DNA of 51,677 nt from Elusimicrobia bacterium CG_4_9_14_3_um_filter_62_55 (GTDB taxonomy: Bacteria > Elusimicrobiota > Elusimicrobia > UBA1565): NCBI GenBank assembly GCA_002790095.1, contig PFUL01000181.1, positions 1-51,677 on the forward strand. The letters run 5' to 3'. Positions 1 through 19,641 of the stretch are shown one piece after another. The notes under the pieces were generated by a model that was not told where the DNA came from, searched no databases, and saw only the letters and a list, made by a program, of their open reading frames with translations. Numbering within the stretch: position 1 is the stretch's first letter; the number at the start of each line of letters is the position of its first letter. The position numbers and the translations under genes were made by a program.

Positions 1-3000
1 CCTGCGGCGACGGAAATAATGCCAACGCCGACGCGTTGGGAACCTGCGCGGTCAGTCAGGCTTCCTTTACGGTGACCGGTCTGGATTCTCAAACGATCGA
101 CATCGAATTCCTCTACCGGACCACCGGCCGCACCGCGAAGCGCCGGATTTCCGTGGTCAACGGCGGGATGACGACCGCGACCGTGGATCTGCGCGACGCC
201 ACGTTCTCGATCTCCGGCCTGATCGTCAACCAGATCACCGACACCGGCTTCAACACCAACCCGAAACTGGTGGACAACAGCGCGCTGGTGCCGCTGAAGA
301 CCCGCACCGGAGGGGCGGTCACCCTTCCGCCGCTGACGGACGTTCCTGTTTCGACCGCTTCGCTCGCCCGCGTGATCGCGGTGCGCCAGGACTTTAACAC
401 GTTCTCCGTCGGAGTCTCGACCTCCTTCGACCCGGCCAACGACCGCGTCGGCTTCATCCAGACCGGCGGGACCTTCACGATCCGAAACGTGCCCGCCGGA
501 GTCTACCTGCTGCGGACCGAAAACCTCCGTCTGTGCGCCACCTGCGCGGTCGCGGTCCCGGAAAGCCGTTCGATCGTGACGGTGACCAACGCGGACCTGG
601 TCGGGTCCAGCATAGCCCTGACCTCCGGCTTCAGTGTGAGCGGCTCGATCTCGTTGGAGAACAGCATCTCCGACGCGCGCACCCTCGCCCTCGCGCTGCG
701 CAACTCGCGCCAAGAGGTGGTGCGTTCGACGCGGATTTTGCTGGGCAACCCCGGCACCGGCCAGAACTCGAACTCCGTCGCGTACGGCTTCGCGAATTTG
801 CCCGCCGGTCAGTTCTATACCTTGAGCGTCGTCGACAGCTCGGCGGCGCCGAAGTACATCGGCGCGCCGATCCGATTCCCGGACGCCGCGTCCTCGCCCA
901 ACGGCCTCTCGGGCAATCTGATTTCGCAGAACCTTACCTTGAAGGTCGGCGCCTTCGTGACCGGAAAACTCAAGGACGCGAACACCGGTTCGCTGATCCG
1001 CGAGGCGAACGCGAAGCTCCTGGCGCCGAATTTCCAGATTACCGCGACCGCCAACCCGTGGGTGGAGGGCGGCTTCGCGATCGCGCCGTCGAGCGTGCAG
1101 GCGAGACCGATCCTCGCCGACGGGACATGGAAGGTCGGGCCGTTGTTCCCCGGCATCCCCTACGACATCCGCCTCGGCCAGACGAAGTGGGACCTCGCGT
1201 TCCTGGCCAACGGCTCGCAGAACTACGCCCCGGTGACCCTTGCGGGTCAGATCATGCAGTCGTCGGAGATCAAGGACGCCGGAACCATCGGCTTGGCGCA
1301 GGGGCAGTCGATCAAGGGCACGATCGTCAACGCGGCGTCGACTCACACCGCCTTGGGCAACATCAAGGTGGTCTCGCGCCCCTCCTTCGGGACCTCGGAC
1401 GTGCGGGTCGAGACCTACTCCAACGGCGCCGGCGCGTTTACGATTTGGGTTTCGACCGAGGTCTCGGCGCAGTACGACATCCAGTTCGCGCCGCGCGACG
1501 GCAATCTGGCCTCCGACGGCTTCCGCTACTCGACGCTGGACCTGCGCACCGTCGAGGTCACGACCGCGCCGTTGGCGATCCGCTTGAATCAGCTGTTGGG
1601 TTCGGTCACGGCCCAGATCACGACTGCCGACGGCGGGGCCTTAGGCTATCCGTTCGGCGACCAAAAGGGCTTCCCGGCCGCCGCGGTGTTTATGCAGAAG
1701 GCCGGGGTCGTGGCGCTCACCAACCCGTTCGGCGACGTCGAGGAATTGACCGACGGGGCGGGCGGCTTCACCGTGCCGGGTCTCTCCACAGGGACGTACG
1801 TGCTCCAGGCGGTCAGCCTCGGCTACAATGTCGCGAAGGCGACGGTGGTCGTGACCCCGAACTCGTTCTGCATCTCGACGACCTCGAACATCGGGGCCTG
1901 CACGACGAACGTGACGCTGCAGCGGGGCGCGCAGGCGACCGGCCGCATTCTCCTGCCCGACGGCTCGGCCCCCAGCAACCGCGAGGTCGGCGGCGTGGCG
2001 GCGGCGACGCGGGACTTCAAGGAATTCCTCCCCGGCACCGTCGAGTACGATCCGACCGCGCAGACGGTGAAGAGCTATACGATATCGGGATTCAAGACCG
2101 GCTTGGTCTACGACCTGGTCATTTTGCCGCAGCAAGGCGACGATATCTACACGCCGAACGAGGGCCAAGGCATCTCCTTCTCATCCGCGGAATCGACGAC
2201 GACGAAGACGATCAATCTGACCTACTCGCGGCCGAAGCCGGACTGCGTCGCCGATCATAAGGCGCTGGGCAACAATCAATTCCTGGTGAAGTTCGAGTGC
2301 TCGCAGCCGATGCGCAACAAGATCACCGCCGACAGCGATCTCTCCCGGATCATTACGATCGCGACCGCGACCGCGAGCGGCGCCGCCCTGATCGCCCCGA
2401 ACGGGACCGGCGCGATGCTGGGTTCCGATTACCGGCTGGCGAGTACGCGAAGCAGGTTCCAAGGGATTTACCGGGCGGCCGCCGGCGAGTCGCAGTACTC
2501 GATCAAGCTGCTGGCGACGATGGCCACGATCGACAACGCCACCGGCGACAACTTCATCCTGGAAAAGACCTTCGACTTCTTCACCGGCTTGGAGTCGGCG
2601 AAGAAGGACAAGTGTCCGAACATGAAGACCTGCGAGTTGAAGCTGGAACCGACGCAGGAGGACACGAATCTCGGCCGCAACGAGAAATTCTCGGTGAATA
2701 TCCCGCCCGGGTCGTTCACGAAATGCGCCGCGGGCGATGTCGGCTGCACCGTCGATCCGGGCCAAGCGGGTACCAACGATACCCAGCTCAATCCGCAGGT
2801 CGAGGTCCGCCGCGCACGCTCTAGGGAACAGGCGTCGGCCCAGTACCTCCGCGCCTACGGCTACACGCCGCAGCACTTGGCGACGCGCAACGACCGCGAG
2901 TCGATCCCGGGCGAACTCGGCATGGCGATTGCGAATTACAAAACGCTCGCCTCGACGAATGTTAACGCCGCGAGCGCGTTCTACGACATTTTCCTGCCGT

Positions 3001-3608
3001 TGGGCATCCGCACGCAGTTGACCAAGGAGGTCGATTTGACCTTCTCGTATCAACTGCCGTCGTCGACGACGCCGGTGAACGACCTCAACGTCTGGCATTT
3101 CAACACGACCACGGGCAAGTTCGAAATCGAGAACACCAACCGCCGCGTCGACGCGCAGAACGAGACGGTGACCGTCACGGTGGATCACTTCTCCACCTTC
3201 GTCGTGTTGGCCTCGACGCCGATCGTCACGTCGAATTCTCCGTTCGGCGGCGGGGATATCGACGTGTTCAACTTCCCGAACCCGTTCGACTGCACGGGCA
3301 AGACGAAGTCGCTCAATAACCGGGTGACGAATACGGGATCGGTGAGCTTCAACGGGACCTTGATCCGCTTCAGCCTCCCGACGGGCCAAACCGCGGAAGC
3401 GAAATTCCGGATCTACAACGTCGCCGGCGAACTCGTGCGTGAGTTCAGTCAAGGGAGTCTCGCGGGCGGGTTCACCTACTACTCGCCGTGGGACTGCCGC
3501 AACCAGGGGGGCGTCAACGTCGCCTCGGGAATCTACATCGGCCAGCTCGAATGGGGCGGGAAGAGTAAGTTCTTTAAGATGGCGTTGATCAAGGGGAGCG
3601 GCCTGTGA
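1..3608 (+). CDS. Large secreted multidomain protein with type IX-like C-terminal domain (5' end outside window)
   Basis: The reading frame is open from base 3 with no stop, so the true start lies upstream; the TTG at 36 is only an internal codon. About 1200 residues are visible. Repeated short modules end in a hydrophobic-Pro/Gly-Tyr pattern (TFTIRNVPAGVYLL, GFTVPGLSTGTYVL, SYTISGFKTGLVYDL), as in carboxypeptidase-regulatory-like beta-sandwich domains. Near the C-terminus are a ZU5-like region ending VTVTVDHFSTFVVL and a FlgD/type IX-like sorting domain (FNFPNPFD, then FRIYNVAGELVREF, then GIYIGQLEW and FFKMALIKG). The last third is recognisably paralogous to the end of the 3580-residue protein at 7946-18688. 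The stop overlaps the start of a PorV-like gene by one base, so the two are translated together. I infer an exported, surface-attached or released protein; its ligand or substrate is unknown. Confidence 0.85.
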   Translation, partial: CGDGNNANADALGTCAVSQASFTVTGLDSQTIDIEFLYRTTGRTAKRRISVVNGGMTTATVDLRDATFSISGLIVNQITDTGFNTNPKLVDNSALVPLKTRTGGAVTLPPLTDVPVSTASLARVIAVRQDFNTFSVGVSTSFDPANDRVGFIQTGGTFTIRNVPAGVYLLRTENLRLCATCAVAVPESRSIVTVTNADLVGSSIALTSGFSVSGSISLENSISDARTLALALRNSRQEVVRSTRILLGNPGTGQNSNSVAYGFANLPAGQFYTLSVVDSSAAPKYIGAPIRFPDAASSPNGLSGNLISQNLTLKVGAFVTGKLKDANTGSLIREANAKLLAPNFQITATANPWVEGGFAIAPSSVQARPILADGTWKVGPLFPGIPYDIRLGQTKWDLAFLANGSQNYAPVTLAGQIMQSSEIKDAGTIGLAQGQSIKGTIVNAASTHTALGNIKVVSRPSFGTSDVRVETYSNGAGAFTIWVSTEVSAQYDIQFAPRDGNLASDGFRYSTLDLRTVEVTTAPLAIRLNQLLGSVTAQITTADGGALGYPFGDQKGFPAAAVFMQKAGVVALTNPFGDVEELTDGAGGFTVPGLSTGTYVLQAVSLGYNVAKATVVVTPNSFCISTTSNIGACTTNVTLQRGAQATGRILLPDGSAPSNREVGGVAAATRDFKEFLPGTVEYDPTAQTVKSYTISGFKTGLVYDLVILPQQGDDIYTPNEGQGISFSSAESTTTKTINLTYSRPKPDCVADHKALGNNQFLVKFECSQPMRNKITADSDLSRIITIATATASGAALIAPNGTGAMLGSDYRLASTRSRFQGIYRAAAGESQYSIKLLATMATIDNATGDNFILEKTFDFFTGLESAKKDKCPNMKTCELKLEPTQEDTNLGRNEKFSVNIPPGSFTKCAAGDVGCTVDPGQAGTNDTQLNPQVEVRRARSREQASAQYLRAYGYTPQHLATRNDRESIPGELGMAIANYKTLASTNVNAASAFYDIFLPLGIRTQLTKEVDLTFSYQLPSSTTPVNDLNVWHFNTTTGKFEIENTNRRVDAQNETVTVTVDHFSTFVVLASTPIVTSNSPFGGGDIDVFNFPNPFDCTGKTKSLNNRVTNTGSVSFNGTLIRFSLPTGQTAEAKFRIYNVAGELVREFSQGSLAGGFTYYSPWDCRNQGGVNVASGIYIGQLEWGGKSKFFKMALIKGSGL

Positions 3609-4555
3609 TGAAGCGCTTCCTCTCTCTGATCGCGCTTGCGCTGATCGCCGCGGCTCCCGCGGGGGCGATCAGCAACCGCGCGGGCACGAGCGGGGCGGCC
3701 TTCCTCAAACTCGGCGCAGGCTCGCGCGCCGGAGCGATGGCGGAGTCCTACTCGGCGGTCGCCGGTGACGTCAGCGCGATCTACTACAATCCGGCCGCCT
3801 TGACGCGGTTGACCAAGAGCGAATTGCTCGCGGCGCACACCGAACACTTCCAGGGCATCGGCTACGAGGTCGGGATGTTCGCCTACCCGTTCGGCCGTGG
3901 GGAGAAGTCCTCGAAGAACGTTTTGGGCTTCGCCGTCTACAACCTGGGAGTTTCGGATATCCAGCGCCGCACCGGGGATACCGACGCGCCGATCGGCTCT
4001 TTCTCCGCGGGCGATTACGCCTATACGCTTTCCGGGGCTCACCGCGTGAGCGAGCGCGTCAGCGTCGGCGGCAACGGCAAGTACATCCATCAGACCATCG
4101 ACTCGTTCCATGCGGACGCCTTCGCTCTGGATGCCGCGGTGCTTTACACGCCGTATCCGAAGGCCGCCCGTCCGATGCATTTCTCGGCGGTGCTGAAGAA
4201 TTTCGGCACGAAGGTGAAGTTCGCGGGGATCACCGATCCTCTCCCCGCCGGCTTCACTCTCGGGTGGGGCATGAACATCACGCCGAAGTCGTGGATGGTC
4301 AACGCCGATCTGACGAAGTACAACGACACCGATCCCTTCCTCGCGATCGGGACGCAGTATCGCCGCGAACTCAGCGAAGCCATCGCGGGAGCGTTCCGCG
4401 CGGGCTTTACCACGCATCGCCGCGAGAATCCCGGCTTCAACGAACTGACGCTGGGAGCGGGGCTCGAATTCCATCGAGCAGCCTTCGATTTCGCTTGGGT
4501 GCCGTTCGGCGACCTCGGAAACACCTTCCGCTTCTCCGTCATCGTTAAGTTCTAA
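3608..4555 (+). CDS. PorV/PorQ family outer-membrane beta-barrel protein (copy 1)
   Basis: The product is 315 residues with a signal peptide (KRFLSLIALALIAAAPAGA). The mature N-terminus carries the family signature: GTSGAAFLKLGAGSRAGAMA, then AIYYNPAAL. Alternating hydrophobic strands continue to a C-terminal phenylalanine, typical of BamA-inserted barrels. I chose ATG 3608, which overlaps the upstream stop by one base and follows GGGGAG at about 3593-3598; GTG 3605 is possible. In characterised type IX systems PorV is the outer-membrane shuttle that receives cargo through its C-terminal domain and hands it to the attachment complex. Immediate linkage to a protein with such a domain supports that role here. 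No SprA translocon or PorKLMN gene is in the window, so the secretion route is inferred. Confidence 0.85.
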   Translation: MKRFLSLIALALIAAAPAGAISNRAGTSGAAFLKLGAGSRAGAMAESYSAVAGDVSAIYYNPAALTRLTKSELLAAHTEHFQGIGYEVGMFAYPFGRGEKSSKNVLGFAVYNLGVSDIQRRTGDTDAPIGSFSAGDYAYTLSGAHRVSERVSVGGNGKYIHQTIDSFHADAFALDAAVLYTPYPKAARPMHFSAVLKNFGTKVKFAGITDPLPAGFTLGWGMNITPKSWMVNADLTKYNDTDPFLAIGTQYRRELSEAIAGAFRAGFTTHRRENPGFNELTLGAGLEFHRAAFDFAWVPFGDLGNTFRFSVIVKF

Positions 4556-4559
4556 ATAA

Positions 4560-4605
4560 GGAAAAACGTCTGTTTTTCCACTGTTGCGGCGATGTTAAGC
4601 GCCGC
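4560..4605. terminator. Two tandem hairpins after the first PorV-like gene
   Basis: Directly after the stop codon, GGAAAAAC (4560-4567) pairs perfectly with GTTTTTCC (4572-4579) across a 4-base loop. GCGGCG (4586-4591) then pairs with CGCCGC (4600-4605) across 8 bases. Neither is followed by a clear T-run, so a Rho-independent terminator is uncertain; they could be mRNA-end stabilising structures separating the first cargo/PorV unit from the FecR operon. Confidence 0.4.
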
Positions 4606-4615
4606 GTTCCGGGTA

Positions 4616-4643: not shown

Positions 4644-4662
4644 AACGAAGCATCACGGTTTC

Positions 4663-6189
4663 ATGAAACGCATTCTTCGCAGAACCATACTTACCCTAAT
4701 AGTGGGCGTTCTCGCCTCGGCGACCGCGTTCGCGGCTTCGCTGCGCAAGGTCGAGGGGCTGGTGCAGATTCAAGGGATCGGATTCGGTCCGTGGAGAGCC
4801 GTAAGGGACGTTCCTCGCACGGTTTCTCCGGGGGAGAAGCTGAGGACCGGCCCGGGAGCCGGGGCGGTGCTGCTGTTCTCCGACGGGACGCGCGTCGACC
4901 TGGAGGGGGACGCGTCCTTGATCCTCGAGGCGGATTCCGCGGATCGGAAGATCCTCCGTTTGGTGCTTGGAACCGCGACGCTCGAAGCCCGCGGCGCGAA
5001 GACGCGCTTGATCACCCCGACCGCGGTCGGAGCCGTGCGGGAAGAGGCGGCGACCTTTCGCGCCTCGGTGCTCTCCGGCGGGCGTACGACCTTGCAGGTG
5101 TTCGACGGTCTCTTGGGAGTGGAGGATAATCGGGGACATCAGACGCTGCTTCGTCCTCAGGAGAGTCTGCGGATCGATTTGACCGGGATGGCCGTGCCGC
5201 GCCGGCTTCCGACGGGAACTCAGATGCGCAAAGCGGACGCGCGCGACCGTCTGCTGCGGGAAATGCGCTTTGACGCGGAGCGAGACGCCCGTACGGCCCG
5301 TTCCGCGGCGAGGCTGCGCACGGGAGAGCTTGAGTCGGGAAAGGCCCTGATCGACCGCACGGGACTCCGGGTTCGCTCGGAACGCTATCTCCTGCGCCCC
5401 GGTCCGGATCAATTCAAGCTTGTCTCGCTGACCGGACGCGGCTCCCGGATCGACTACTTCTACTACCACGCGGTTTACAACGCGGCGCTGCCGGGAAACC
5501 TCTCGGGACTTTGGGCCGAGCTGCAGGGCGCCGTCGACGCGGCGCCGTCGCGCACGAGGACCTCCTACGAGGTCGGCATGTCGAACGGACAGGATTCGGT
5601 TCGCATCGCCGCCGACGGCGGGCACCTTGTGGATTTGAACGCGAACGCGGACGCGACGGACAACGTCTCGTCGTTGTTCGACGGGAATTCGGACGGCTAC
5701 GCGGAGGTCTCGGGCCGGGCGGTGTTCGTCCCGCTGTTCGACCGTTACGGGGTCTACGTGAACGGAAAACTCAAATCCGGCTACACCGGCGCGAACCTGC
5801 AGGCGCTCTCGGACCGGACGAAGTCGACGAACACCGATCCATTCAGCGGGGCGGCTCTGACGGCGCAGAACGCGTATTTGGACGGGACCGGCTTTCTCGC
5901 TTCCCTCAGCGAGAACACCACTTTTCCGGATTCGGAGGCGATGCGGCAAAGCGTCTATGAATCATATTCCGACGGCGCGTTTTTCCAGACGGATTCGTTC
6001 GCGCTCGACGGCGATCAAGGAACTGCGACGAGCGGTGATTTCGGCGGGATCAGGAGCGGGGACGGCTTCCGGAGACGTTTGTTCGATTTCAACCTCGAAC
6101 AAACCCTGACGGCCTCCGAGTTTTCGGGTCGGAAAATCGACCTGATGCTCGGCCCGCGCTTCCAGGTTTTGTCGGGACTGATTCGGTAG
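4663..6189 (+). CDS. Exported FecR-domain protein
   Basis: The product is 508 residues with a signal peptide ending near TAFAA. Residues about 27-175 form a FecR-type beta domain: KVEGLVQIQ, a PGEKLRTGPGAGAVLLFSDG stretch typical of the family, then VDLEGDASLIL and LVLGTATLEA. A charged, probably helical segment follows (about 185-225), then a Ser/Asp-rich C-terminal region with no recognised domain. Classic FecR proteins are inner-membrane anti-sigma factors with an N-terminal cytoplasmic segment; this one instead begins with a signal peptide, so it is more likely a periplasmic or surface FecR-fold protein like those beside secretion genes. It begins a tightly spaced unit with the barrel, cNMP-binding, giant-cargo and PorV genes (gaps 8, 13, 16 and overlap 4), which suggests a shared function. 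Confidence 0.75.
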   Translation: MKRILRRTILTLIVGVLASATAFAASLRKVEGLVQIQGIGFGPWRAVRDVPRTVSPGEKLRTGPGAGAVLLFSDGTRVDLEGDASLILEADSADRKILRLVLGTATLEARGAKTRLITPTAVGAVREEAATFRASVLSGGRTTLQVFDGLLGVEDNRGHQTLLRPQESLRIDLTGMAVPRRLPTGTQMRKADARDRLLREMRFDAERDARTARSAARLRTGELESGKALIDRTGLRVRSERYLLRPGPDQFKLVSLTGRGSRIDYFYYHAVYNAALPGNLSGLWAELQGAVDAAPSRTRTSYEVGMSNGQDSVRIAADGGHLVDLNANADATDNVSSLFDGNSDGYAEVSGRAVFVPLFDRYGVYVNGKLKSGYTGANLQALSDRTKSTNTDPFSGAALTAQNAYLDGTGFLASLSENTTFPDSEAMRQSVYESYSDGAFFQTDSFALDGDQGTATSGDFGGIRSGDGFRRRLFDFNLEQTLTASEFSGRKIDLMLGPRFQVLSGLIR

Positions 6190-6197
6190 AGACAACG

Positions 6198-7463
6198 ATG
6201 AAACGGCATCTTTCAGGCCCGGGAGCAATGCTCATGGCGTTATTGACCGGCGCGTTCGCGTCGGCGCTCGACCTTCGTCCGGCCGCCGCGGCGCAATGGC
6301 AGCCGGCGGGCTCGCTGCGTCTTCTCGGCGGTCAATATGCCTTCCGGGGGGCGCGGGCCGGGGTCAGCGGGGACGCCGAGTTCCGGGGGGCTCTCGCGGC
6401 CGTGCTGGGGGATCGCTGGTCTCTCTTGGGCTCACTCGATACGGCTTACGAAGGGACGAAGCCTCTGTCGCAGCCGACCGGGGGCGGGGCGCTGTTTCAA
6501 CAGAGGATGGCGCACGCGGCGGGCGTGAAGGCGGTGTATGCCCCGTCCGCGAATCGCTGGCGGTTCAAGCCCTCGCTTCGCTACCGATTGGAACTGCTTC
6601 GGGAGACCCGGGACGAACGCTGGTTCGAGGGACTGTTCGACTCGCAGGCGGTCACGCTCGGCTTCGAGGGGGAATTGCCCTTTCGCGACTTATATTCGCT
6701 GCGTTTGGGCTTGGACTACGGGTTCGTGAGTTTTCCCCGTTACCGGTCCTTAGAAGCGCGTTCTCCAACGGACTTTCAAGGCGGCCGCCTCGCGCGGGAA
6801 CTCGCCGGCGACAAGGTTCTGGATCACCGGAGCCAAACCGCGTACGCGGCGCTATCGTTTCCCATGTCTTTCCTCGGGAAATCCGAGGTCGACGCGTCGT
6901 TGTCGTTTCAGCGCCGCGGGTTTCAGGATCAGCCGGTCGTCACGGGGGACGGGACGCTGTCAGGGACGAACCGGGTCGACTTTGAAACGCGCGCGTCGGC
7001 GCGTGGGTCGGCCGCCAAGGAAATCCGCAGGGAACTCCGCCTGCGCGGAGCCTTCGGGCTGTCCGGCGCCATCTCGATATCGAATCAAAACCGCTACGAC
7101 GCGGACCGGGGGGAGTATCTCGCCCGGTACTACAACCGAACCGAGTGGTCGCTGTCCCCGTCGGTCGCGTTGGAGTTGGGAGACGAGCGGAGCCCGGTGA
7201 CGGTGCGCCTTCGCCTCGACCGGACGACGCGCGCGTGGGGTCGGCGCAGGGCGCAGGATGCTTCGGGCGTCTACCGCGGTCCGGCTTTAAGTCAAACGGT
7301 TTGGACGACGGGACTCGATCTTCGCTGGCCGTTGGGGACGCGGCTGAGTTTGGTTTCTGAGATCGAAGGCTCATGGGCCTCGTCGAACCAGGCCTACGAA
7401 CAGTATTACCGGTACAACTACGGCTCGGTGAGGGCGGTGACGGGCCTCGAGTTGGCATTCTGA
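6198..7463 (+). CDS. Predicted outer-membrane beta-barrel protein, family not recognised
   Basis: The product is 421 residues. An N-terminal hydrophobic signal region (about 8-33, rich in Ala, ending RPAAAA) leads into alternating polar/hydrophobic strands with Arg/Tyr girdles throughout, such as WSLLGSLDTAYEG, YSLRLGLDYGFVSF and EWSLSPSVALELGDE. The last residues are AVTGLELAF, a terminal-phenylalanine pattern expected of a BAM substrate. The ATG lies eight bases after the FecR stop. Number and alternation of strands suggest a barrel of 16 or more strands, but this is by eye. No plug or TonB box is visible, so a TonB-dependent receptor is unlikely. Position between FecR-like and cNMP-binding genes suggests an accessory pore or surface protein of the same system. 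Confidence 0.6.
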   Translation: MKRHLSGPGAMLMALLTGAFASALDLRPAAAAQWQPAGSLRLLGGQYAFRGARAGVSGDAEFRGALAAVLGDRWSLLGSLDTAYEGTKPLSQPTGGGALFQQRMAHAAGVKAVYAPSANRWRFKPSLRYRLELLRETRDERWFEGLFDSQAVTLGFEGELPFRDLYSLRLGLDYGFVSFPRYRSLEARSPTDFQGGRLARELAGDKVLDHRSQTAYAALSFPMSFLGKSEVDASLSFQRRGFQDQPVVTGDGTLSGTNRVDFETRASARGSAAKEIRRELRLRGAFGLSGAISISNQNRYDADRGEYLARYYNRTEWSLSPSVALELGDERSPVTVRLRLDRTTRAWGRRRAQDASGVYRGPALSQTVWTTGLDLRWPLGTRLSLVSEIEGSWASSNQAYEQYYRYNYGSVRAVTGLELAF

Positions 7464-7476
7464 CGGAGGGAACGGC

Positions 7477-7929
7477 ATGGAAAAACTGGAGATGACGGAC
7501 GTCGATTACGCGAACCTCGCGAAGGCGCTGCGTACCGTGGATTTCTTCGCGCCGATGACGATCGGGCAATTGGAAATGATTTTGCCCTACATCCTGCTCA
7601 TGCGGTACGCCCCGGGAGAAACCGTGTTCCGTCAAGGCGATCTCGGGGACGCGTTTTACATCGTTTACGACGGGGGAGTGCAGGTCCGCTTGAAAACGTT
7701 TCTGTTCTTCTCGAAACCCGTCGCGGAGTTGCCGGCAGGCTCGTTTTTCGGGGAGATGGCGCTCTTGTCCGATGAACCGAGAAGCGCGACCCTCGTGGCG
7801 ACTTCGTCGACCCGGCTCTTCGCGCTGCTTTCGCGCGACTTCCAGTACGTGCTGAAAAAGAACCCCGAGTTCGCCGAGGAAATGCGCAAAATCTCCGACC
7901 GGAGGAAATTCATGTCGCAGCATCAGTAG
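7477..7929 (+). CDS. Stand-alone cyclic-nucleotide-binding domain protein
   Basis: The product is 150 residues and consists almost only of a CRP/PKA-type cyclic nucleotide-binding fold. A helix leads into ILLMRYAPGETVFRQGDLGD and AFYIVYDGGVQVRL, then the phosphate-binding cassette FFGEMALLSDEPRSATLVA with the Gly-Glu pair and the Arg that in the family hold the cyclic phosphate. There is no DNA-binding helix-turn-helix, kinase or channel domain; the C-terminus is a short charged helix. GGAGG at 7465-7469 is a good ribosome-binding site seven bases before the ATG. It is cytoplasmic (no signal), the only such product in this exported-protein operon, and may transmit a cAMP or cGMP state to a partner. 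The partner is unknown. Confidence 0.85.
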   Translation: MEKLEMTDVDYANLAKALRTVDFFAPMTIGQLEMILPYILLMRYAPGETVFRQGDLGDAFYIVYDGGVQVRLKTFLFFSKPVAELPAGSFFGEMALLSDEPRSATLVATSSTRLFALLSRDFQYVLKKNPEFAEEMRKISDRRKFMSQHQ

Positions 7930-7945
7930 CCCGGGGCGGCCGCTT

Positions 7946-10900: not shown

Positions 10901-13900
10901 GTTCTGACGGTGAAGGGCGATCTCCGGATAGAGGGTTCCTCCTTCGACTTCGCGTCGTTTGGGTCGAGTACGGTTCGTTTCGCCGGGACATCGGTGCAAA
11001 CCGCTTCCGTTCCGGCGAGCGCGCGGTTTCATGATTTCGAGGTGGCATCGTCCAGTCCCGTCGTGTTCTCGACCGGAAGCGCCGTTTCGATCTTTCACGA
11101 CCTCCTTTTGACCGGCGGTTCTCTCCGGGGTTCGGACGCCGCTGTCTCGTTGTGGGGAAATTGGACCGGGACCGGCGGCGCGTTTATCGGCGAGACGAGC
11201 ACGATAAGCTTGGTCAATCCGGCGACGACTCAGACCTTCGTTGATTCCTTGGTCCAGAATTTCCACGGCTTGACGGTTTCGAGCGGAACTCGGGTTTTTA
11301 AGCGAGGCTTCGGGGCGAATGCCTTCACCGCGTTGACGCCTGCGACGACGATTCAGTTCGGCAGCGGGGAAACATTCACGATCCTCGGGTTGACCGTGAA
11401 CGGCAATTCCCTGACGTCCCCTGTCGTTTTAACGAGTACGGCGACGGGCCTTTCCGCCCGTTTCGTCGTGACCCAGTCGACCGTCACCGCCGCGCGCGTC
11501 CAGGACATCGACGCCTCCGGCGGGGCGGTGATCAACGTAAACGACGGACGCAGTGTCTCCGGAGGAAACACGCCGGGGTGGAATTTCATCTCCGATCTCA
11601 TGCTCCTTGCTCCCGGCGAATCGTTCGTCCAAGCGACCGGCAAGGTCGGCGCGCCGACCCCTCAGGTTGCGGGGACGACGTTTACCGTCACGGTGCTCGC
11701 CGTTTCGGACCGTTTCGTATCGGTCTCGGCGTCTTCTATTACCGTTTCGCTCGCAACCAGCGACCCGTTCGACGTGGAGCCGTCTTCCCGCGCCCTCCTC
11801 GCCGGGACGACGACCTTCCCGGTCGTCCTGCGGACGGCGGAACCCTCGCCGCTGAACTCTGTTCTAACGCCGACTTCCCCTTCTGCGATCGGACAGACCG
11901 GATCGACGGTTCCGGTGAATCCCTCCTCGTTCGACCGTCTGCAGATGGTATTCCGGGGACAATCCGTTTTGCCCGGTTCTCCCTTGGGGATGATCGGAAC
12001 CCCGGAGATCGAGTTGATCGACCGGCCGTTCTCTCTGACGATTCGCGGCACCGACGCGTATTGGAACTTAATCAGCACCACCGGCGCCGGCGTCGCTCTC
12101 GCGACGAGCACGGCCGCGGGAGCGGTCTTCCCCGCTCCGCTTCAACTCGTCGGAGGGACGACCGTGTTCTCCGGCGTGGTGATCGGAAGCACCGGCGTGT
12201 TCACGATCACGTCCTCGCATACCGTCGATTCTTCGATCCTGCCGGTGATCGGGTCCACCTTTTCGGTTTTCTCGATTTCCAATTCGAGTCCGAGCATCAC
12301 CTTCGACCTCCCAAACAACGCAGTCGTCGGAACCTTGAGCGGTTCTCTCACGGGACGCGCGAACGATTCGGTCGCCGTCGCCGTCGTGCGGGTCGCGGTT
12401 CAAGATAAAACGGAAGGGAAGTATTACGACTGGAACGCCGGGACTTTTACCGCGCCGGCGGCGGACTTCCGGCAGGCCGACGTCGAACCCTTCCGGGGCC
12501 GCGACGTGATTTGGAAGGTGGCGTTGTCGGATGAGAAACTCGTCGAAGGCCGGCGCTATTTCATGGTCGCCCGCTCGACCAACCCTACGGAACTGGAAGG
12601 ACAGGTCGAATCGACATTCACGTTCCGTTTCTCGGATCTTCTTTTCTCTCCGGGTGATGGAGAAGGAACAGCCTCGCTCACCTCCGAGTCGCTTCCCGGA
12701 TGCGGGATCGCGGTGGCGACCGTAACCTTCACCGTCGGACCTTCCGGAATCGGTCTCGGCGGCGCGGTCGCGCTTCGGATTCCGGAGGGTTGGACGAAAC
12801 CCGCCGGTCTTTCACCCGGCGCGGCTCCCGCGGTGGGCTACGCGGCCATCGTTTCGACTTCTCCGGCGTGGACGGTGCCCGCTTCTTCTCCCGTCGTATT
12901 CAACCCCGTATCCATCGGGAGTTCGACGCTGGGCGACAATTGGATCGTGGTTTCGGTCGCGACGAATGCGGCGAACGGTTTCGCCCCCGGAGAGCAGATC
13001 GCGTTCACCTACGCCGGCATTGCCGCCGCCGGCGCGGGCGGCACCGGCCCGCAGTTCTTCGATCTTCGCACGCGCAAAAGCGCGGCGGGGGACTTGATCG
13101 GAATCTCGACCACTCCCGTCCTGACGCTGAGCACCGGTCCTCCGGCGGCCCTCGCGTTCTCGGATGTGCGGGAGTTGTCGCTCGGGCCGCTGCAGCAGGC
13201 GCCGACCGCGCAGATTTACCTGACCGACGCCTGCGGGAACCGGACGCCCGCCGCGGCGCCGCTCAACGTCTTCCTCTCGGCCGAGGCTTCGAGCGGCGCG
13301 GCGCGAAGCACCGACTTCCAGGCGGAATTTATTAAGTCGGGCGGGTTCTCCTCATCCTTCGTCACGATCGGGACCGGGCAAAGCGGGTCGGAGTCGTTCT
13401 TTTTCAGGACTTCCACGACGGGAGTCCAGGTGGAGATCCTCCGCGCGAGCGCGACTCTATCCGGGTCGGCCGCGTACGCCGAGCGCGTCGCCCGCCTCTC
13501 GACAAGTACGCTCGCGTTCACGGGAGTGTCCATCGACACCGGGACGCTGTCCTTGGGCAGCACGTCCGTCGTCTTGACGCCGGGTTCGCACGAGAGGGCC
13601 GTCGTTCGCTTCACGCTTCCGGCGGCGATGGATTGGTCGGTTTCCGTGGGAACCTCGTCGGCGATGGATTCGACCCTGTTGCGCTCGGGCGGCGTTTCGG
13701 AGGAGGGGGAGACCCGCGTCGTGCCGTTCGATCCGATTCGCTGCGGGGCGGGCGTCTGCCGTTTCTTGGATGCGGGCCGCTACGGTGTGCGCGTGCAGGC
13801 CGCCGCCGGGGTTCTCGAAGACCGTACGCTGGAACTGCGGATCCTGGAGACTCCCTCCCTTTCAGGGACGCTTGGGACCGCGGGTGCCGGCGCGTTGGTT

Positions 13901-16900
13901 CGCGCCGACGGCCCGGGCGTCGGCGCGGGACATTTCGATCGCGCGACGTCGACGGGTTATTTCCGAATCCGAGGGCTTCGGCCCGGCGCCTCGTATTCCG
14001 TCACGGCGACGACGCTGAGCGTGGTGGACGGGGCCGCGGTGACGCTGAGCACGGTGGTCGGCGGGGTGATCGCCTCGTCCACGGATACCTCGCTCGGGAT
14101 ATTGGGGTTCGATTCCCTCGGCACTTTCCGGATCAGCGTCGGAATCCCGGTCCCGGCCCCGACCGAACTTTTCGGCGGCGTGACTCTCGAAAGCGCGGAC
14201 GCGTCGCGGCGCGCCTTCGGGACCTTGCACTATCCGAAAGGAGCCGCTCGCTCCGATGATGGGGGACAGATCCTCGGTCGCAACGCGAGCACGTGGACGG
14301 TGCTCGCGATCGCGCCGGGAGTCTATACGGCGACCGTGGAACTCGCCTCCCTGGGGATATCCTCGACGATCCCGTCGATAACGGTGTCCAGCGGGATCAC
14401 CCATTACCCGGTGACCTTGACCCCCCGCGCGAATTTGTACGGCCGCGTCATACTCCCGTCGACGCAGACCTACGGAACCTTCGTGGCGGTGCAGGCGATC
14501 GCGGCGGGGAAGACGGTTCCGTCGGTATTCGGCGGCGGATTCATATCCCCCGCAGATTCCGGAGTCGTTCCGACTTCGACGACATACTCTCTATTCGGTC
14601 TCGCGGCGGGCAGTTGGACGATCCGCGCGGAAAGCCGCGGATTCAAGTCGACCTCCTCGGCGCTGTTCGTCTCGGGATCCGGAGAAATCGGCGATTCGAT
14701 CACCGGGGCGGGGGGGCTGGATCTCTCGTTGGAACTGGGCGCCGTACTGGTCGGTTCGGTGACGGTCTTGGGCGACACGCGGCGTCTCGACGGCAGCGGC
14801 GAGACGGACATCCCCGGGCTCAATCTAAAGGCGGGGCCCGGGCGGTTTTTCGTCTTTGTGGACGCGTATGATCCGGCGAGTTTCGCCCGCGGCGGAACGG
14901 TCGTGGAGCTTTCCACGGCGGCGTCGCAAAGCGTCGCGACCTTCACGATCACCGGCCTCGATCCCGGCGAGCATTGGGTGGACGCGCGTCTTCCCGGGTT
15001 CCGCAAAGATCCGGCCCGCGCCGCGCGCGTCGCGGTTTCCAGCGCTGCGCCGTCCCGCGCCGACATCGTCTTCCGCGCCAACGAGGCGCGGATACGTCTG
15101 GTCGTCGAGATATCGACTCCCGCGTCGCCATGCTCGTGCGCGGCTGATTTCGCGCGGGTCGGCGCCTCGTTCACGCGTCCCGATGGGAGCGTGCGCGTCG
15201 TGTCGAACCTTACCTCTCTGGACGGCGTCGACGGCGCCTCCTTCACCTACTATCAATCGAGCTTCTCGTTCTTGAGCCCGCCGTTGGAGGGCGGGTTTCA
15301 CCGTATTCTTCTGCGCGACGGGATCTCCGGCGGGTTCGACGAACGGACCGTGCCGGCGGCGTTGGGATCGACCGCGACGGCGACCGCGGCGCTCAACCGC
15401 GCGACATACACGATTTCCGGAGCGGTTTCTTTCTCGGGCGGCGCCCTGTTTTTAAAAGACGGATTTTCCATCTCCGTGAGTTCCGTCCCCGGATTGCTTT
15501 CTCAAAGCGCGACCGGCGCGTTTTGTTTGTTGGGTTCGACGGCTCCGGTCTCGCTGCCGGCGCTTCGCGTCGAATTGCTGCCGATCGAGAGGACCGCGCC
15601 CGGCGAACCCGGGAGTCTTTTTGTTTCCACCTCTTCGAATTGCGCCGATTTTTCCCTGCCCGCTTCTTCCGCGTCGGCCGTCGCGGGTCTCTCCGCCTAC
15701 GCGGCGGCCGTAAAGGCGGACGGATCCTTTTCGATTCCGGGGATTCCGGAGGGGGTCTACCGCCTGCGGATTCCGGGGGATTTGAACGCGACCGCGGCGG
15801 ATGGAAACGAGATGGCGCCGTTTGATCAGGAACTGCGCGTCGCGAGCGCGGCGGCGCTGTCGCTCAGGCTCAAGGCAGGCTCGCGGGTCGCCGGCGTCGT
15901 GCGGGCTCCGGACGGGGTTGCGGTTGATCGCGCGATCCGCGTCTCGCTTTTCGACTCGCGGGGACGCAGGGCGGCGACGAATCAGTTGCGCTTCAACGCC
16001 GAACGCTCCCGGGGATTTGTGTTCGACAGCGTCGCGGATGGAGACTATACCCTCGCCGCAGAGGATCTCGGCGCGCGGGCGACGCTGGCGGCGGAGCCGC
16101 TGTTGGTCTCCGTCGCGGGAGCGGAGCGCGAAGGCTTGGAGCTCTCTCTTGTCGCGGGGGGAAACATCGTGGGACGGATCGCCGTCGAGCAGAGGAGACC
16201 GGACGGTACGCGTTCCTTCACCGGGATCACTCCAGACAACCTTGTTTTGCTGCCGCCGGGATTGCGCGTCGTCGCTTCCGCCAACCCTTGGCGGCTGGGC
16301 GGGTACGGCGCCGCGCTCGGCGAGGAGTGCGGGGAAGAGGGCTGCGCCCGGCTGAGGATCGACGCGAACGGCCAGTTCGTCGTTCCGGCGCTTCTCCCGG
16401 GCACGTACGACCTCGAGTTCAACATCGCGAATGGTTCCGAAAACACGCTGCGCGGGAGTCTCGATTTGGTCTCGGCCGTCAGCGGGGGCATCACCGTGGA
16501 ATCCAACCGGACCACGGACGCCGGGATCGTTCGTTTGATCGGAGCTGCTGCGGTCTCGGGGTCGGTTGTGGACGCGGTTTCCGGAGTGCCCGTCGCGAAC
16601 CTGCCGATTCGGGCGGTGCCTTCCGTGAGGACGCCGGGGACCGAAAGCCGAAGGCGGGCCGAACCTGAAACCCAGACCGACAACGCAGGGAGCTATTTGC
16701 TGCGCGGCCTCGACCCCGCGGTTCGCTACTACGATATCGTCGCCGCCCCGCGCTCGGAGGATGAGAACGGCTCGCGGACGCGGCCTTACGCGACAGTCGT
16801 GCAGCCCTCGGTGGACGTGGTTAGCACGACGACGGTCGATTTCTCCCTTTTGCCGAGTTCGTTTTCGGTTTCCGGCGCGGTCGCCGCAGAGGATGGGGGA

Positions 16901-18688
16901 ACGCTGCGCTCGGCCGGAGAACGGAGCGCGGAGCCCGGCGCGCTCGTGGTGCTGCGCAAAGACGGCAAAGTCGAAGCGCTGGATTCCGTGGAGGATCTGC
17001 GGCTTCGGACCTTCCCGGACGGGTTGTTTACGATCCCCGCGGTCGCCACGGGGACCTATTCGCTTCGCGTATACGCGGACGGCTACGGCTTGCGCAAGCT
17101 GGCCGTAATCATATCGACGCGTTCGGTCGATCTCGGAACGATCACCCTTTCGCGGGGCGCGTCCGTCGCGGGGCGCATCGTCTCCGCGGACGGCACGGCT
17201 CCGGGGGAAGATGAAATTTCCTCGGTGTTCGCGGCGACGCCGGACATGTCCCGGACGCTATTCGGCAGTCTGACGCGCGATCCCAATACGCGTACCGTGA
17301 CCGGCTATCGCGTTTCGGGGCTCGATCCCGGAACCGGATACCGCGTCCTTCTGCGCTCCTCCGCGGAGGACATCATCTCCCCGGAGAACGCCCGCTTCGT
17401 CGTGGCGACAAGCAGTTTCGAAGCGCGGACCGTTGATCTCGTCTATCGTCGCCCCCGTCCTGCGGTGTTGGTGAAGTCGCGCCGAACCGGAACGGCTTTC
17501 GATCTGGCGTTCGAAACGAACCGGCCCTTGCGCTCACGCAAACGCAGCGACGGCGACGCGTCCCTCATCATTTCAACCGTCTCCGCGCAGGGAACTCTTT
17601 CCGTTCTGGAAATCGCCGCGGACCGACGCCGCGTGAGGGGCGTGTATACTCCGGGTGTTTCGGAATCGAGCTTCACGTTGCGTTTCGCGGCGTACAGCGC
17701 GATCCGGGATCCCGACAGCGCCGACCCGTCCGACCCGGAGTACCGTCTGGTCTCCACGTTTACCTTCTACCCGGGGCTCGACGGCTATCACCAAGCGGCG
17801 ATCCCGAACCTCACAGGTGGAAAGGTTTCGCTTGAAACGGATCCGGGACGCGTGTCCCTCCCCGAGGGCGCGTTCTTCGTGGACGCTTCGTCGACGGTGC
17901 GCGTGGCCTTGGAGCGCTCCGACGAACTGCTGCAGGACGCGCGCGGGCTGCAAGCCGCGGGATACACCCCGGAGGGAGCGAATCTCAAAGCGCTGCGCCA
18001 TCCGACCGGAGCATATCCGGGTCCTTTGGCGCGCGCGCTAGCCGCGACCCCTCCCGGGGTGACGCCCATGAGTTCGTTTTACGACGTTTTGCTTCCCGCG
18101 GGTGTTCCGACGACGCTCGCCAAGCCCGCGGAATTGACGCTGCGGTACTCGACCGGGGCGTCCGCGTCTTCGCTCGGGGTCTACTGGTACAACGCCGCGG
18201 CGAATACCTATGTGCGGCAAACGGATGCGGGAGGCGTCGGGCTCCGCATCGACGGCGGAAACCGGACGGTGACGATCAGCGTGGACCATTTCTCCACGTA
18301 CGTCCTGTTTGATTCGGGCGTTGCGGCGATCTCCGGCAATCAATTCGCCGGCGGGGGGATCGAGGCGTTCAACTTCCCGAACCCCTTCGATCTGAGCGTG
18401 AAGACGGTCACGCCCATTCACGGAGTTCCCGCCCGCGCCGTCCGCGGGACCTTGATCCGTTTTGCTTTACCCCCGGAGGCGTCGGGTGCGGGGAGCCTGC
18501 GGATCTATGCCGTCACGGGCCGACAGGTGCGGGGATTCGATCTCGGAACCTTGACCGGCGGCAAGTATTACTACCAGGCGTGGGACGGCCGCAACGACGG
18601 AGGCAACGACGCGGCAAGCGGCGTGTATATCGGTCAGGTGAAAGTGGGCGAACACTCCGCGTTCTTTAAGATGGCGTTGATCAAATGA
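7946..18688 (+). CDS. Giant (3580-residue) secreted repeat protein with type IX-like C-terminal domain
   Basis: A signal peptide (residues about 1-22) precedes a W-G-W-NW-P type motif (FSWNDAANWTPVGIPG, about 33-48) common at the start of large beta-helical adhesins. Residues about 165-320 are Gly-rich. From about 450 to 1110, parallel-beta-like repeats recur every 75-245 residues, each with a V-x-F-x-G-x-S-x-QT element. Ig-like segments follow, then from about 2000 carboxypeptidase-regulatory-like modules (YFRIRGLRPGASY, TFTITGLDPGEHW, SYLLRGLDPAVRY). The last ~1200 residues are paralogous to the protein at 1-3608, ending with VTISVDHFSTYVLF, FNFPNPFD and FFKMALIK. The composition is extremely Ser/Thr/Gly-rich. 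Start ATG 7946 gives a clean signal peptide. The stop overlaps the second PorV-like gene by four bases. I infer a surface or extracellular adhesin-like protein exported by a PorV-dependent route; no catalytic domain was recognised. Confidence 0.85.
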   Translation: MNVIRSILLSLLLALPGATARAASVQWSGQGDGFSWNDAANWTPVGIPGTSDDVSISSSVTVIANSASGVALKSLTVGNGVSSTTLVASTGIIVSGQLLIRSSSVFQFDGNEHAVAALTTLESGSLATHTGPVESSTVSAVFRTGVFDLQAGATVSVSGKGLRGGLAVAPGLGSGGGGAGSGGSGGGGAGHASVGGRGGIILNGGAVYGDARDAFDLGSGGGGSLAPCFGGAGGGRFRLIADSATINGRIEANGADGGGGCAFGGGAGSGGTIRVQTADLFGTGVLAVDGGTGGTSGVGGGGGSGGRLSIVSTGTLSLGVAVSSAAGLGGIGGPSGDIGGPGSTFISPKYFTGGGLSFCTDAGNWWGNLLPQDGEFVVFDSTGANKDCTWAFGTVKVGSMTLRSGYLANFSWSSFSSEITGSLSVEGGTFTMNNVGLKIGGDFTQTGGVFNLTQGTVTFAGASSQTVRMTPAASFNRIVTNAGRTFLLASSMDLNGHWRAIGPSTVTLTGGTSVFLSGDLDFDSTVAVLESSTHAFVLDGSSSQLLRIPRMGQLRVRPGSSGRLASGFTLGVSSGVTIDAGGVLFAQSAVLASSGDWINDGTFDGTGGTVAFGAAGSTQTIVRGGAGFHHFRLDEMQAVVRLATDAFVGGDLSVLQGILDLGVSTHRVRGHWIESSSGTVRPGGGVVVFDGSSPQTVFQSTGSAFHTVVSSNASGVTFATHTVLTGAFSMESGVAAFPGISLRIGGDFFRRGGVHPSVAGSTVTLDGIGIQRVDLSTGTIALDSLVIANSSGGVSLDNSLFLDRDLTISTGAVLFGSSGTLTLRGASARLNAFGAVYRSTGPVGHRLRLQAPPGREIIVAADSTIGASMEIIGKATLAGDLVLDGTGEFLTVGPGAELDARSSTITLRGTTDLRLSTGSLYRRDADSWLVFAGSGSNRGLTLSTGPFGNLRVAPEWPQASFRFADLTLDGSFVYENGSVRNSTGAVLTVKGDLRIEGSSFDFASFGSSTVRFAGTSVQTASVPASARFHDFEVASSSPVVFSTGSAVSIFHDLLLTGGSLRGSDAAVSLWGNWTGTGGAFIGETSTISLVNPATTQTFVDSLVQNFHGLTVSSGTRVFKRGFGANAFTALTPATTIQFGSGETFTILGLTVNGNSLTSPVVLTSTATGLSARFVVTQSTVTAARVQDIDASGGAVINVNDGRSVSGGNTPGWNFISDLMLLAPGESFVQATGKVGAPTPQVAGTTFTVTVLAVSDRFVSVSASSITVSLATSDPFDVEPSSRALLAGTTTFPVVLRTAEPSPLNSVLTPTSPSAIGQTGSTVPVNPSSFDRLQMVFRGQSVLPGSPLGMIGTPEIELIDRPFSLTIRGTDAYWNLISTTGAGVALATSTAAGAVFPAPLQLVGGTTVFSGVVIGSTGVFTITSSHTVDSSILPVIGSTFSVFSISNSSPSITFDLPNNAVVGTLSGSLTGRANDSVAVAVVRVAVQDKTEGKYYDWNAGTFTAPAADFRQADVEPFRGRDVIWKVALSDEKLVEGRRYFMVARSTNPTELEGQVESTFTFRFSDLLFSPGDGEGTASLTSESLPGCGIAVATVTFTVGPSGIGLGGAVALRIPEGWTKPAGLSPGAAPAVGYAAIVSTSPAWTVPASSPVVFNPVSIGSSTLGDNWIVVSVATNAANGFAPGEQIAFTYAGIAAAGAGGTGPQFFDLRTRKSAAGDLIGISTTPVLTLSTGPPAALAFSDVRELSLGPLQQAPTAQIYLTDACGNRTPAAAPLNVFLSAEASSGAARSTDFQAEFIKSGGFSSSFVTIGTGQSGSESFFFRTSTTGVQVEILRASATLSGSAAYAERVARLSTSTLAFTGVSIDTGTLSLGSTSVVLTPGSHERAVVRFTLPAAMDWSVSVGTSSAMDSTLLRSGGVSEEGETRVVPFDPIRCGAGVCRFLDAGRYGVRVQAAAGVLEDRTLELRILETPSLSGTLGTAGAGALVRADGPGVGAGHFDRATSTGYFRIRGLRPGASYSVTATTLSVVDGAAVTLSTVVGGVIASSTDTSLGILGFDSLGTFRISVGIPVPAPTELFGGVTLESADASRRAFGTLHYPKGAARSDDGGQILGRNASTWTVLAIAPGVYTATVELASLGISSTIPSITVSSGITHYPVTLTPRANLYGRVILPSTQTYGTFVAVQAIAAGKTVPSVFGGGFISPADSGVVPTSTTYSLFGLAAGSWTIRAESRGFKSTSSALFVSGSGEIGDSITGAGGLDLSLELGAVLVGSVTVLGDTRRLDGSGETDIPGLNLKAGPGRFFVFVDAYDPASFARGGTVVELSTAASQSVATFTITGLDPGEHWVDARLPGFRKDPARAARVAVSSAAPSRADIVFRANEARIRLVVEISTPASPCSCAADFARVGASFTRPDGSVRVVSNLTSLDGVDGASFTYYQSSFSFLSPPLEGGFHRILLRDGISGGFDERTVPAALGSTATATAALNRATYTISGAVSFSGGALFLKDGFSISVSSVPGLLSQSATGAFCLLGSTAPVSLPALRVELLPIERTAPGEPGSLFVSTSSNCADFSLPASSASAVAGLSAYAAAVKADGSFSIPGIPEGVYRLRIPGDLNATAADGNEMAPFDQELRVASAAALSLRLKAGSRVAGVVRAPDGVAVDRAIRVSLFDSRGRRAATNQLRFNAERSRGFVFDSVADGDYTLAAEDLGARATLAAEPLLVSVAGAEREGLELSLVAGGNIVGRIAVEQRRPDGTRSFTGITPDNLVLLPPGLRVVASANPWRLGGYGAALGEECGEEGCARLRIDANGQFVVPALLPGTYDLEFNIANGSENTLRGSLDLVSAVSGGITVESNRTTDAGIVRLIGAAAVSGSVVDAVSGVPVANLPIRAVPSVRTPGTESRRRAEPETQTDNAGSYLLRGLDPAVRYYDIVAAPRSEDENGSRTRPYATVVQPSVDVVSTTTVDFSLLPSSFSVSGAVAAEDGGTLRSAGERSAEPGALVVLRKDGKVEALDSVEDLRLRTFPDGLFTIPAVATGTYSLRVYADGYGLRKLAVIISTRSVDLGTITLSRGASVAGRIVSADGTAPGEDEISSVFAATPDMSRTLFGSLTRDPNTRTVTGYRVSGLDPGTGYRVLLRSSAEDIISPENARFVVATSSFEARTVDLVYRRPRPAVLVKSRRTGTAFDLAFETNRPLRSRKRSDGDASLIISTVSAQGTLSVLEIAADRRRVRGVYTPGVSESSFTLRFAAYSAIRDPDSADPSDPEYRLVSTFTFYPGLDGYHQAAIPNLTGGKVSLETDPGRVSLPEGAFFVDASSTVRVALERSDELLQDARGLQAAGYTPEGANLKALRHPTGAYPGPLARALAATPPGVTPMSSFYDVLLPAGVPTTLAKPAELTLRYSTGASASSLGVYWYNAAANTYVRQTDAGGVGLRIDGGNRTVTISVDHFSTYVLFDSGVAAISGNQFAGGGIEAFNFPNPFDLSVKTVTPIHGVPARAVRGTLIRFALPPEASGAGSLRIYAVTGRQVRGFDLGTLTGGKYYYQAWDGRNDGGNDAASGVYIGQVKVGEHSAFFKMALIK
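9309..11250 (+). repeat. Protein-level beta-helix-like repeats inside the giant gene
   Basis: Similar segments recur in the translation: GTVTFAGASSQTV (about 9309), GTVAFGAAGSTQTIV (about 9766), GVVVFDGSSPQTVF (about 9999), STVTLDGIGIQRVDL (about 10229), STVRFAGTSVQTA (about 10968) and STISLVNPATTQTF (about 11199). Most are followed about ten residues later by an aromatic-rich element such as FHHF or FHDF. The DNA copies are diverged, so this is an old protein repeat and not a recent nucleotide duplication. Confidence 0.65.
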
Positions 18689-19641
18689 AAACGAGGAGAC
18701 TGCTTTCGATCGTCCTCCTCTGCGCGGCTTTCCCGGCGCGGACGGGGGCGTTCGGCTCCGCGTCAAAAGGCACGGCCGGAGCCCAATTTCTGAAAATAGC
18801 CCCCGGCGCCCGGCCGGTCGCGATGGGCGAGGCGTTCGGGGCCGTCGCCGAAGGGGTATACGCGGCCCATTACAATCCGGCGGGGCTCGCGTTCGTCGAT
18901 CGGGTCGAGATCGGCGCGGCGCGAGACGCGCATTTTCAGGATATTGCGCACAACTATGGAGCGATCGCGGTGCCGCTTCTTTCTTTGCAGAACACCCGTC
19001 GAAAGCGCAACGCGTTCGGGACAGCCGCGTTTTCGCTGACGAGTCTTTCGATCTCCGATCTCGAACGGCGGGGGACTACGGAAACGGACGCCCCTCAGGG
19101 TTCTTTCGGAGCGAGCGATTTCGCTTACGCGCTCTCCTACGGCGGGTCCGTGACCGAGTCTCTCGCGCTGGGCGCTTCGGCGAAACTGATCCGGCAGACG
19201 ATCGATCGAACCGGGGGAACGGGGTTTGCGTTGGACGGCGGCGTGTTGTGGCGCCGGAAGCGCGGATCCCTCGGCGCCGGCCTGCGCAACTTCGGGCGCG
19301 GAGTGCGTCTCGGTTCCACCACCGATCCGCTTCCGACCGTCACTTACGCGGGAGCCGCCTACCGACCCGCGGCGGGATGGCTCGCGGCGGTGGAATTGCG
19401 GCAGCCGAGCGACGATGTTTTCCTGTTCTCTCTGGGAGCGGAATACGAGCGGGTCTTCTCGAAGCGTCTGCGCGGCGCGCTGCGCGGGGGATTCAATTCG
19501 GCGAATACGGATGCGGACGGCTTGGGCGGCGTGTCCTTGGGCGGCGGGATCGCGTACAAGCGCACGGAATTCGCGATCGCCTGGGCGCCGATGGGGGAAC
19601 TCGGCAACACCTTCCGGTATTCGCTGCGCGTGAAATTCTAG
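18685..19641 (+). CDS. PorV/PorQ family outer-membrane beta-barrel protein (copy 2)
   Basis: The product is 318 residues and a paralogue of the protein at 3608-4555. It has a signal peptide, the N-terminal signature GTAGAQFLKIAPGARPVAMG, then HYNPAGL, and ends GELGNTFRYSLRVKF; copy 1 ends with the closely similar GDLGNTFRFSVIVKF. The ATG overlaps the giant gene's stop (ATGA), implying coupled translation in roughly matched amounts. By analogy with PorV of the type IX system it would receive the C-terminal domain of the 3580-residue protein at the outer membrane. That each cargo gene has its own copy suggests partner specificity, or dosage. Its stop codon overlaps the stop of the convergent gene by four bases, leaving no room for a terminator between them. 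Confidence 0.85.
   Translation: MKTRRLLSIVLLCAAFPARTGAFGSASKGTAGAQFLKIAPGARPVAMGEAFGAVAEGVYAAHYNPAGLAFVDRVEIGAARDAHFQDIAHNYGAIAVPLLSLQNTRRKRNAFGTAAFSLTSLSISDLERRGTTETDAPQGSFGASDFAYALSYGGSVTESLALGASAKLIRQTIDRTGGTGFALDGGVLWRRKRGSLGAGLRNFGRGVRLGSTTDPLPTVTYAGAAYRPAAGWLAAVELRQPSDDVFLFSLGAEYERVFSKRLRGALRGGFNSANTDADGLGGVSLGGGIAYKRTEFAIAWAPMGELGNTFRYSLRVKF

Follow-up and report, generated by a model that had tools for sequence, protein, structure and literature searches.

Genes for giant exported proteins paired with PorV/PorQ-family barrels in Elusimicrobiota suggest a type IX-like route of secretion and display

The window analysed here, a stretch of 51,677 nucleotides that makes up one whole contig (C101) of a 4.31-Mb, 95% complete Elusimicrobia genome, opens with seven consecutive plus-strand genes spanning positions 3–19641, in the order cargo1, PorV1, FecR, accessory, cNMP, cargo2 and PorV2 (Table 1). 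The reading frame of cargo1 is cut by the contig edge, and its orthologues at three other Elusimicrobia MAG loci (L146, L147 and L148) extend further upstream; Pfam finds EMC7_beta-sandw/CarboxypepD_reg-like stretches in the visible part, together with a FlgD_ig match of 27.6 bits. Residues 152–1197 of cargo1 align with residues 2589–3580 of cargo2 at 31% identity (378 bits), a common region that accounts for most of the visible cargo1 and for the last ~28% (~990 aa) of cargo2, in agreement with the first-pass annotation of this DNA, which had described two exported proteins with a paralogous C-terminal part. Its description of each cargo gene as running with start/stop overlap into a PorV/PorQ-type gene is equally sound, the overlaps being TGATG at 3606–3610 for cargo1/PorV1 and ATGA at 18685–18688 for cargo2/PorV2. 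For PorV1 the start is taken as the ATG at 3608, the ORF tool having placed it at the GTG at 3605. The two barrels are 38% identical to each other. Just past the module, on the minus strand at 20260–21519, lies a gene for an exported 419-aa protein, rich in proline and glutamate, with no family match.

Table 1. Genes and domains of the cargo–PorV module, with positions numbered from the first letter of the window
Feature	Position	Strand	Description
cargo1	3..3608	+	Large exported protein with CarboxypepD_reg-like repeats; ORF of 1201 aa, 5' end cut by contig edge
CTD of cargo1	3258..3605	+	TIGR04183, 23.4 bits (cut-off 23); CTD profile also matches
PorV1	3608..4555	+	PorV/PorQ-family outer-membrane barrel; NF033709, 146 bits; start overlaps cargo1 stop
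FecR-domain exported protein	4663..6189	+	PF04773, 34 bits
Accessory exported protein	6198..7463	+	421 aa; probable outer-membrane beta-barrel (from sequence only)
Small cyclic-nucleotide-binding-domain (cNMP) protein	7477..7929	+	PF00027, 66.6 bits
cargo2	7946..18688	+	Exported protein of 3580 aa; CarboxypepD_reg, 71.7 bits
CTD of cargo2	18362..18685	+	AlphaFold2 pLDDT 94.8; best Foldseek match PorZ 5m11
PorV2	18685..19641	+	PorV/PorQ-family outer-membrane barrel; NF033709, 126.5 bits; 4-base overlap with cargo2 stop

That the window barrels belong to the PorV/PorQ family, and are not the unrelated barrels that an HMM search might have revealed, is supported by comparisons of both sequence and structure. 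PorV1 and PorV2 alike score above the curated 90-bit cut-off of the PorV/PorQ subfamily model NF033709 and fall below both equivalog cut-offs, which stand at 250 bits for PorV (NF033710; 61 and 43.5 bits) and at 220 bits for PorQ (NF033711; 82 and 57 bits). A phmmer search of the PDB with PorV1 finds the solved PorV 6h3i_F (E 2.7e-6), and a profile built from 60 barrel sequences matches a single PDB chain, the same 6h3i_F, which is the PorV of the SprA–PorV translocon (E 1.9e-32). The AlphaFold2 model of PorV2 (pLDDT 91.1) is placed by Foldseek nearest to PorV 8gl6_F (2e-13) and 6h3i_F (2e-11), with FadL next (1e-8), and on this ranking identification as a FadL transporter is rejected. Identification as PorP/SprF is rejected as well, the model TIGR03519 matching one of the 60 barrels, weakly. 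As to the PorV label first given to these genes, the family is right and the name a little too specific: the PorQ model is matched by all 60 barrels tested, with a lower best E-value than the PorV model gives, so that “PorQ-like” describes the barrels more exactly.

The C-terminal domains (CTDs) of both cargoes are type IX-like and come nearest to those of PorZ and PorU, two T9SS proteins that keep their CTDs and are bound to PorQ and PorV, respectively (PMC10202324, PMC5562754). The AlphaFold2 model of the cargo2 CTD is an Ig-like domain for which Foldseek lists, after PorZ, FlgD, PorU and substrate chains of the T9SS translocon, with modest E-values (1e-3 to 1e-2), as is to be expected for a domain of 124 residues. 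The type A T9SS CTD model TIGR04183 only just accepts cargo1 and does not list cargo2. Among 39 CTDs compared with NCBIfam at E ≤ 0.01, 37 match PorZ, 34 PorU and 30 Por_Secre_tail (TIGR04183), and the type B CTD model (TIGR04131/PF13585) matches one of the 39, weakly. Elsewhere in the source genome, contig C26 (L126–L128) is spanned over all of its 40 kb by one open frame of 13,346 aa; the frame's terminal CTD stops some 100 bases short of the contig end, and Pfam finds Ig-like domains only in its scanned parts.

The pairing of cargo and PorV genes is a solid observation, well outside what chance would give, and it extends far beyond this contig. The first-pass annotation had pictured a secretion “island”; that local reading is rejected, as the source genome carries 24 PorV-family genes, of which 18 are linked to a CTD ORF (directly upstream in 16, following in the 17th and one gene away in the 18th), so that the window is one case, with two of the ~18 linkages in the genome. 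The independent Pfam profile FlgD_ig, searched in the source genome, gives the same picture: for nine of 12 informative proteins the next gene downstream is a PorV gene (p ~3e-18 if positions were random in a genome taken to have 3900 genes), and 11 of the 12 adjoin one or stand one gene apart. About one-quarter of the PorV genes in the source genome, and about one-half of those in a closed genome of the phylum (CP096137), have no CTD neighbour.

Recurrence in relatives, which the first-pass annotation had proposed to count, is equally clear. Judged by PorV similarity, the named genomes nearest to the source genome are Elusimicrobia MAGs, which places it in Elusimicrobiota. In 40 regions of other genomes of the phylum, a CTD immediately precedes most PorV genes, and no PorV gene is followed by an unshared CTD. 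An independent set of 79 loci, all from named genomes, has a CTD upstream of PorV in 64 of 76 cases and downstream in 2 of 47, as against 7 of 570 control ORFs. Across the 51 genomes of the phylum with complete PorV counts there are 343 PorV genes and 354 CTDs (slope 1.06, r 0.94, Spearman 0.92), figures that are to be read with the knowledge that the CTD profile, having been trained on PorV-adjacent CTDs, favours a 1:1 count and may miss CTDs of other types. Very rich genomes, such as the two with 81 and 84 CTD matches, may hold more CTDs than PorVs. The number of PorV copies runs from 1–3 in small gut or symbiont genomes to 10–30 in free-living ones. One dedicated PorV per cargo, as was first suggested from the two modules of the window, is the rule in the phylum.

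Some neighbourhoods depart from this pattern or carry it further. At two loci (L047, on contig C59, and L217) the PorV gene is preceded by a protein ending in GPVWPV in place of a CTD protein, perhaps another class of partner. In Endomicrobia-type genomes (loci L095, L104 and L121), several PorV genes that have no upstream cargo precede a conserved protein of ~187 aa ending in KYHE. Cargo-to-PorV pairs in the same order are present at a KSB1 locus (L223) and a Neomarinimicrobiota locus (L224), and the arrangement is therefore not limited to Elusimicrobiota.

The cargo–PorV pairs are inherited as units. When 17 pairs of the source genome are compared with 10 pairs of the closed genome CP096137, reciprocal best PorV matches are also reciprocal best CTD matches in seven of seven cases, both window pairs included, and the cross-genome CTD and PorV comparisons correlate with r 0.74 (permutation p 0.0002). 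Within the source genome, CTD and PorV distances also correlate (r 0.45, p 0.0015), and within the closed genome alone, where seven pairs with frameshifted sequences were available, the mirror-tree gives no signal (r 0.005). Because tight linkage can by itself account for such co-inheritance, the test speaks for modules and not for CTD–barrel binding.

The three genes that separate the two pairs of the window are less uniform in their distribution. The domains first assigned to the FecR and cNMP genes are both confirmed by Pfam matches, and the accessory protein between them, which has no Pfam or NCBIfam match, is a probable barrel to judge by its sequence. All seven genes are found in the same order at L146, L147 and L148. 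The FecR and accessory barrel genes adjoin a cargo–PorV pair at ~20 loci across the phylum, where the accessory-protein homologues beside FecR score 112–271 bits, and the cNMP gene is kept in place only in the close relatives represented by L146–L148. This distribution marks FecR and the accessory barrel as an accessory sub-module of one class of cargo. In the type IX literature PorE is the tether for PorP; by analogy, our guess would be that FecR and the barrel might tether the giant cargo in the periplasm or to the cell wall.

An outer-membrane pore of the type IX kind is present in nearly all of these genomes. The SprA model TIGR04189 matches frames of 1700–2100 aa in 56 of 60 Elusimicrobiota genomes, that of the source genome (on contig C103) among them, with scores that always lie under the curated equivalog cut-off (130.7 versus 200 bits in the source genome). 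A search with Pfam SprA_N (PF14349) and a phmmer search of the PDB with a single Elusimicrobiota SprA gave no match; a profile from an alignment of 21 members, on the other hand, recovers SprA and nothing else from the PDB at E 1e-36, which identifies these proteins as true SprA homologues. The two genomes that have no PorV (G017 and G050) have neither SprA nor CTDs. The SprA gene is divergent from LptF/G-like genes at 20 of 21 loci (L064–L083 among them), with ComF adjoining at 16. Near SprA at 10 of the 21 loci stand two tandem FadL/PorV-like barrels of ~400 aa (for example L040:6878–9625), whose NF033709 scores are weak and which are candidates for a general SprA partner.

The remainder of the type IX core, for which the first-pass annotation had proposed a search, fares differently from SprA. 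The motor and ring were sought with the models for GldM and GldN. GldM (TIGR03517) finds no match in the 60 phylum genomes or in the closed genome, and none in KSB1, Neomarinimicrobiota, Latescibacterota and the other genomes tried as a hoped-for positive control, which leaves the GldM negative unvalidated; GldN (TIGR03523) likewise matches none of the 60 and had no positive control. The C25 (PorU-type) protease model PF01364 matches one of the 60 genomes (G006) and is absent from the source genome. Since the match in G006 demonstrates that the C25 search works, the PorU negative is the better controlled of the three, and the presence of the protease in one genome of 60 makes a sortase-free anchor plausible. 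As PorM/GldM, PorN/GldN and a PorU-type C25 protease are not found, type IX secretion in its full sense is not established, and the absence of a motor is an inference.

In the reading that we consider fairly probable, these genes encode a type IX-like system of secretion and display in which the cargo leaves through SprA and stays on its own PorQ-like barrel, with no sortase involved. The giant cargo would be synthesised with a signal peptide and carried over the inner membrane by Sec, after which its Ig-like CTD would route it to the SprA homologue, the pore in the outer membrane, where the CTD would pass to the PorV/PorQ-type barrel that the next, overlapping gene supplies for this cargo. 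With no PorU-type sortase in evidence, cleavage of the CTD is not expected, and the barrel would hold the cargo at the surface permanently, in the way that PorQ holds PorZ and SprF is believed to hold SprB. Export through SprA, binding of CTD to barrel, permanent anchoring and lack of cleavage are thus what we would predict of each pair. A further-reaching version, which we put forward tentatively and would sooner doubt than affirm, is that the whole phylum has a type IX-like system without sortase, and possibly without motor, made of the SprA pore and cargo-specific PorQ-like barrels only, in which each surface protein shares an operon with the barrel that receives and anchors it. Such a system, of which the pairs at single KSB1 and Neomarinimicrobiota loci would be further instances, might be early-branching, and Bacteroidota may have derived their design, with its general shuttle and its sortase, from a form of this kind.

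Other explanations have to be set against this evidence. It could be supposed that there is no secretion system at all, and that FadL-type small-molecule channels happen to lie beside adhesins with a FlgD-like Ig domain. Sub-threshold Toluene_X/FadL matches, the second rank of FadL among the barrel folds and the place of FlgD among the best CTD matches would fit this; that all 60 barrels match PorV/PorQ models, that the best PorV fold has an E-value five orders of magnitude below that of FadL and that the pairing is seen in 64 of 76 cases against 7 of 570 control ORFs render chance adjacency a highly improbable account. Alternatively, the barrels might do no more than anchor cargo that takes a different path through the outer membrane, SprA serving something else. 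The SprA genes are unlinked to the cargo–PorV pairs and sit instead beside the LptF/G-like and ComF genes, and one genome (G048) has 12 PorV genes and 6 CTD matches with no SprA match, although its assembly is in 110 contigs. Weighing against separate roles are the joint loss of SprA and PorV in G017 and G050 and the fact that in type IX secretion the CTD, the PorV/PorQ barrel and SprA are known to interact with one another, so that we regard another route as improbable.

Somewhat less easily set aside, if still unlikely in our judgment, is a conventional T9SS that is complete but has diverged strongly, whose PorLM motor, PorKN ring and sortase would lie under the limit of detection and whose PorV paralogues would be recycling shuttles with cargo preference, not permanent anchors. 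SprA itself is recognised only below its cut-off, and faster-evolving GldM-like parts could have escaped searches that, for GldM and GldN, had no matching positive control. Yet these two models are silent in all 60 genomes while SprA is found in 56, the C25 model that demonstrably works in one genome is silent in the other 59, and a recycled shuttle has no need of a copy per cargo, a single PorV being sufficient for ~30 cargoes in P. gingivalis (PMC5562754).

The T9SS has been described as exclusive to Bacteroidota (PMC12618676, PMC10202324, PMC4793230) or to the FCB superphylum (PMC11205867), all type A cargo being carried by a single PorV, and in the openly searchable literature on Elusimicrobiota we found no description of one. 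SprA with one PorV/PorQ-like barrel per cargo outside these groups would alter the view of where the T9SS originated, and it makes testable whether SprA functions without the GldLM motor. The natural cognate and non-cognate pairs of CTD and barrel would offer a way to read the recognition code, and if each PorV marks the gene before it as that of a surface protein, the surface proteome of a mostly uncultured phylum becomes assignable.

The first-pass annotation did not recognise the arrangement as any described system, which stands for Elusimicrobiota and not for the logic of one shuttle per cargo. In F. johnsoniae, type B CTD proteins have dedicated SprF-like shuttles, one barrel per cargo, with the gene directly downstream in 9 of 12 cases (PMC12618676, PMC9143113), and a like logic has been proposed for PorZ–PorQ (PMC10202324). 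What differs here is the combination of a type A/PorZ-like CTD with a PorQ-like barrel, the scale, with one barrel per cargo as the rule, and the phylum; sortase, ring and motor also appear to be lacking. The likeness to the SprB–SprF type, where one FadL-fold barrel serves each giant surface adhesin from a gene directly downstream, is nonetheless close, and in the type B pairs too the CTD is probably uncleaved, the barrel is a proposed anchor and export is via SprA. Unlike the type B pairs, those of Elusimicrobiota have CTDs of the type A/PorZ-like kind and barrels akin to PorV/PorQ and not to PorP; they belong to another phylum, have no general type A/PorV shuttle alongside and come with no detected motor or ring.

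Close parallels are also the PorZ–PorQ and PorU–PorV pairs of the P. gingivalis attachment complex (PMC5562754, PMC10202324), in which a surface protein with its CTD intact sits on its own PorV-family barrel, and it is against PorZ and PorQ that the Elusimicrobiota proteins score best. P. gingivalis, in contrast, has one PorZ–PorQ pair per genome, serving the sortase, whereas Elusimicrobiota have up to tens, encoded as adjacent genes, with giant repeat cargo and no detected sortase. With the general PorV shuttle of Bacteroidota, finally, the Elusimicrobiota barrels share their superfamily, the CTD fold and the SprA pore; they differ from it in that one PorV attends to ~30 cargoes in P. gingivalis (PMC5562754), as opposed to one per cargo here.
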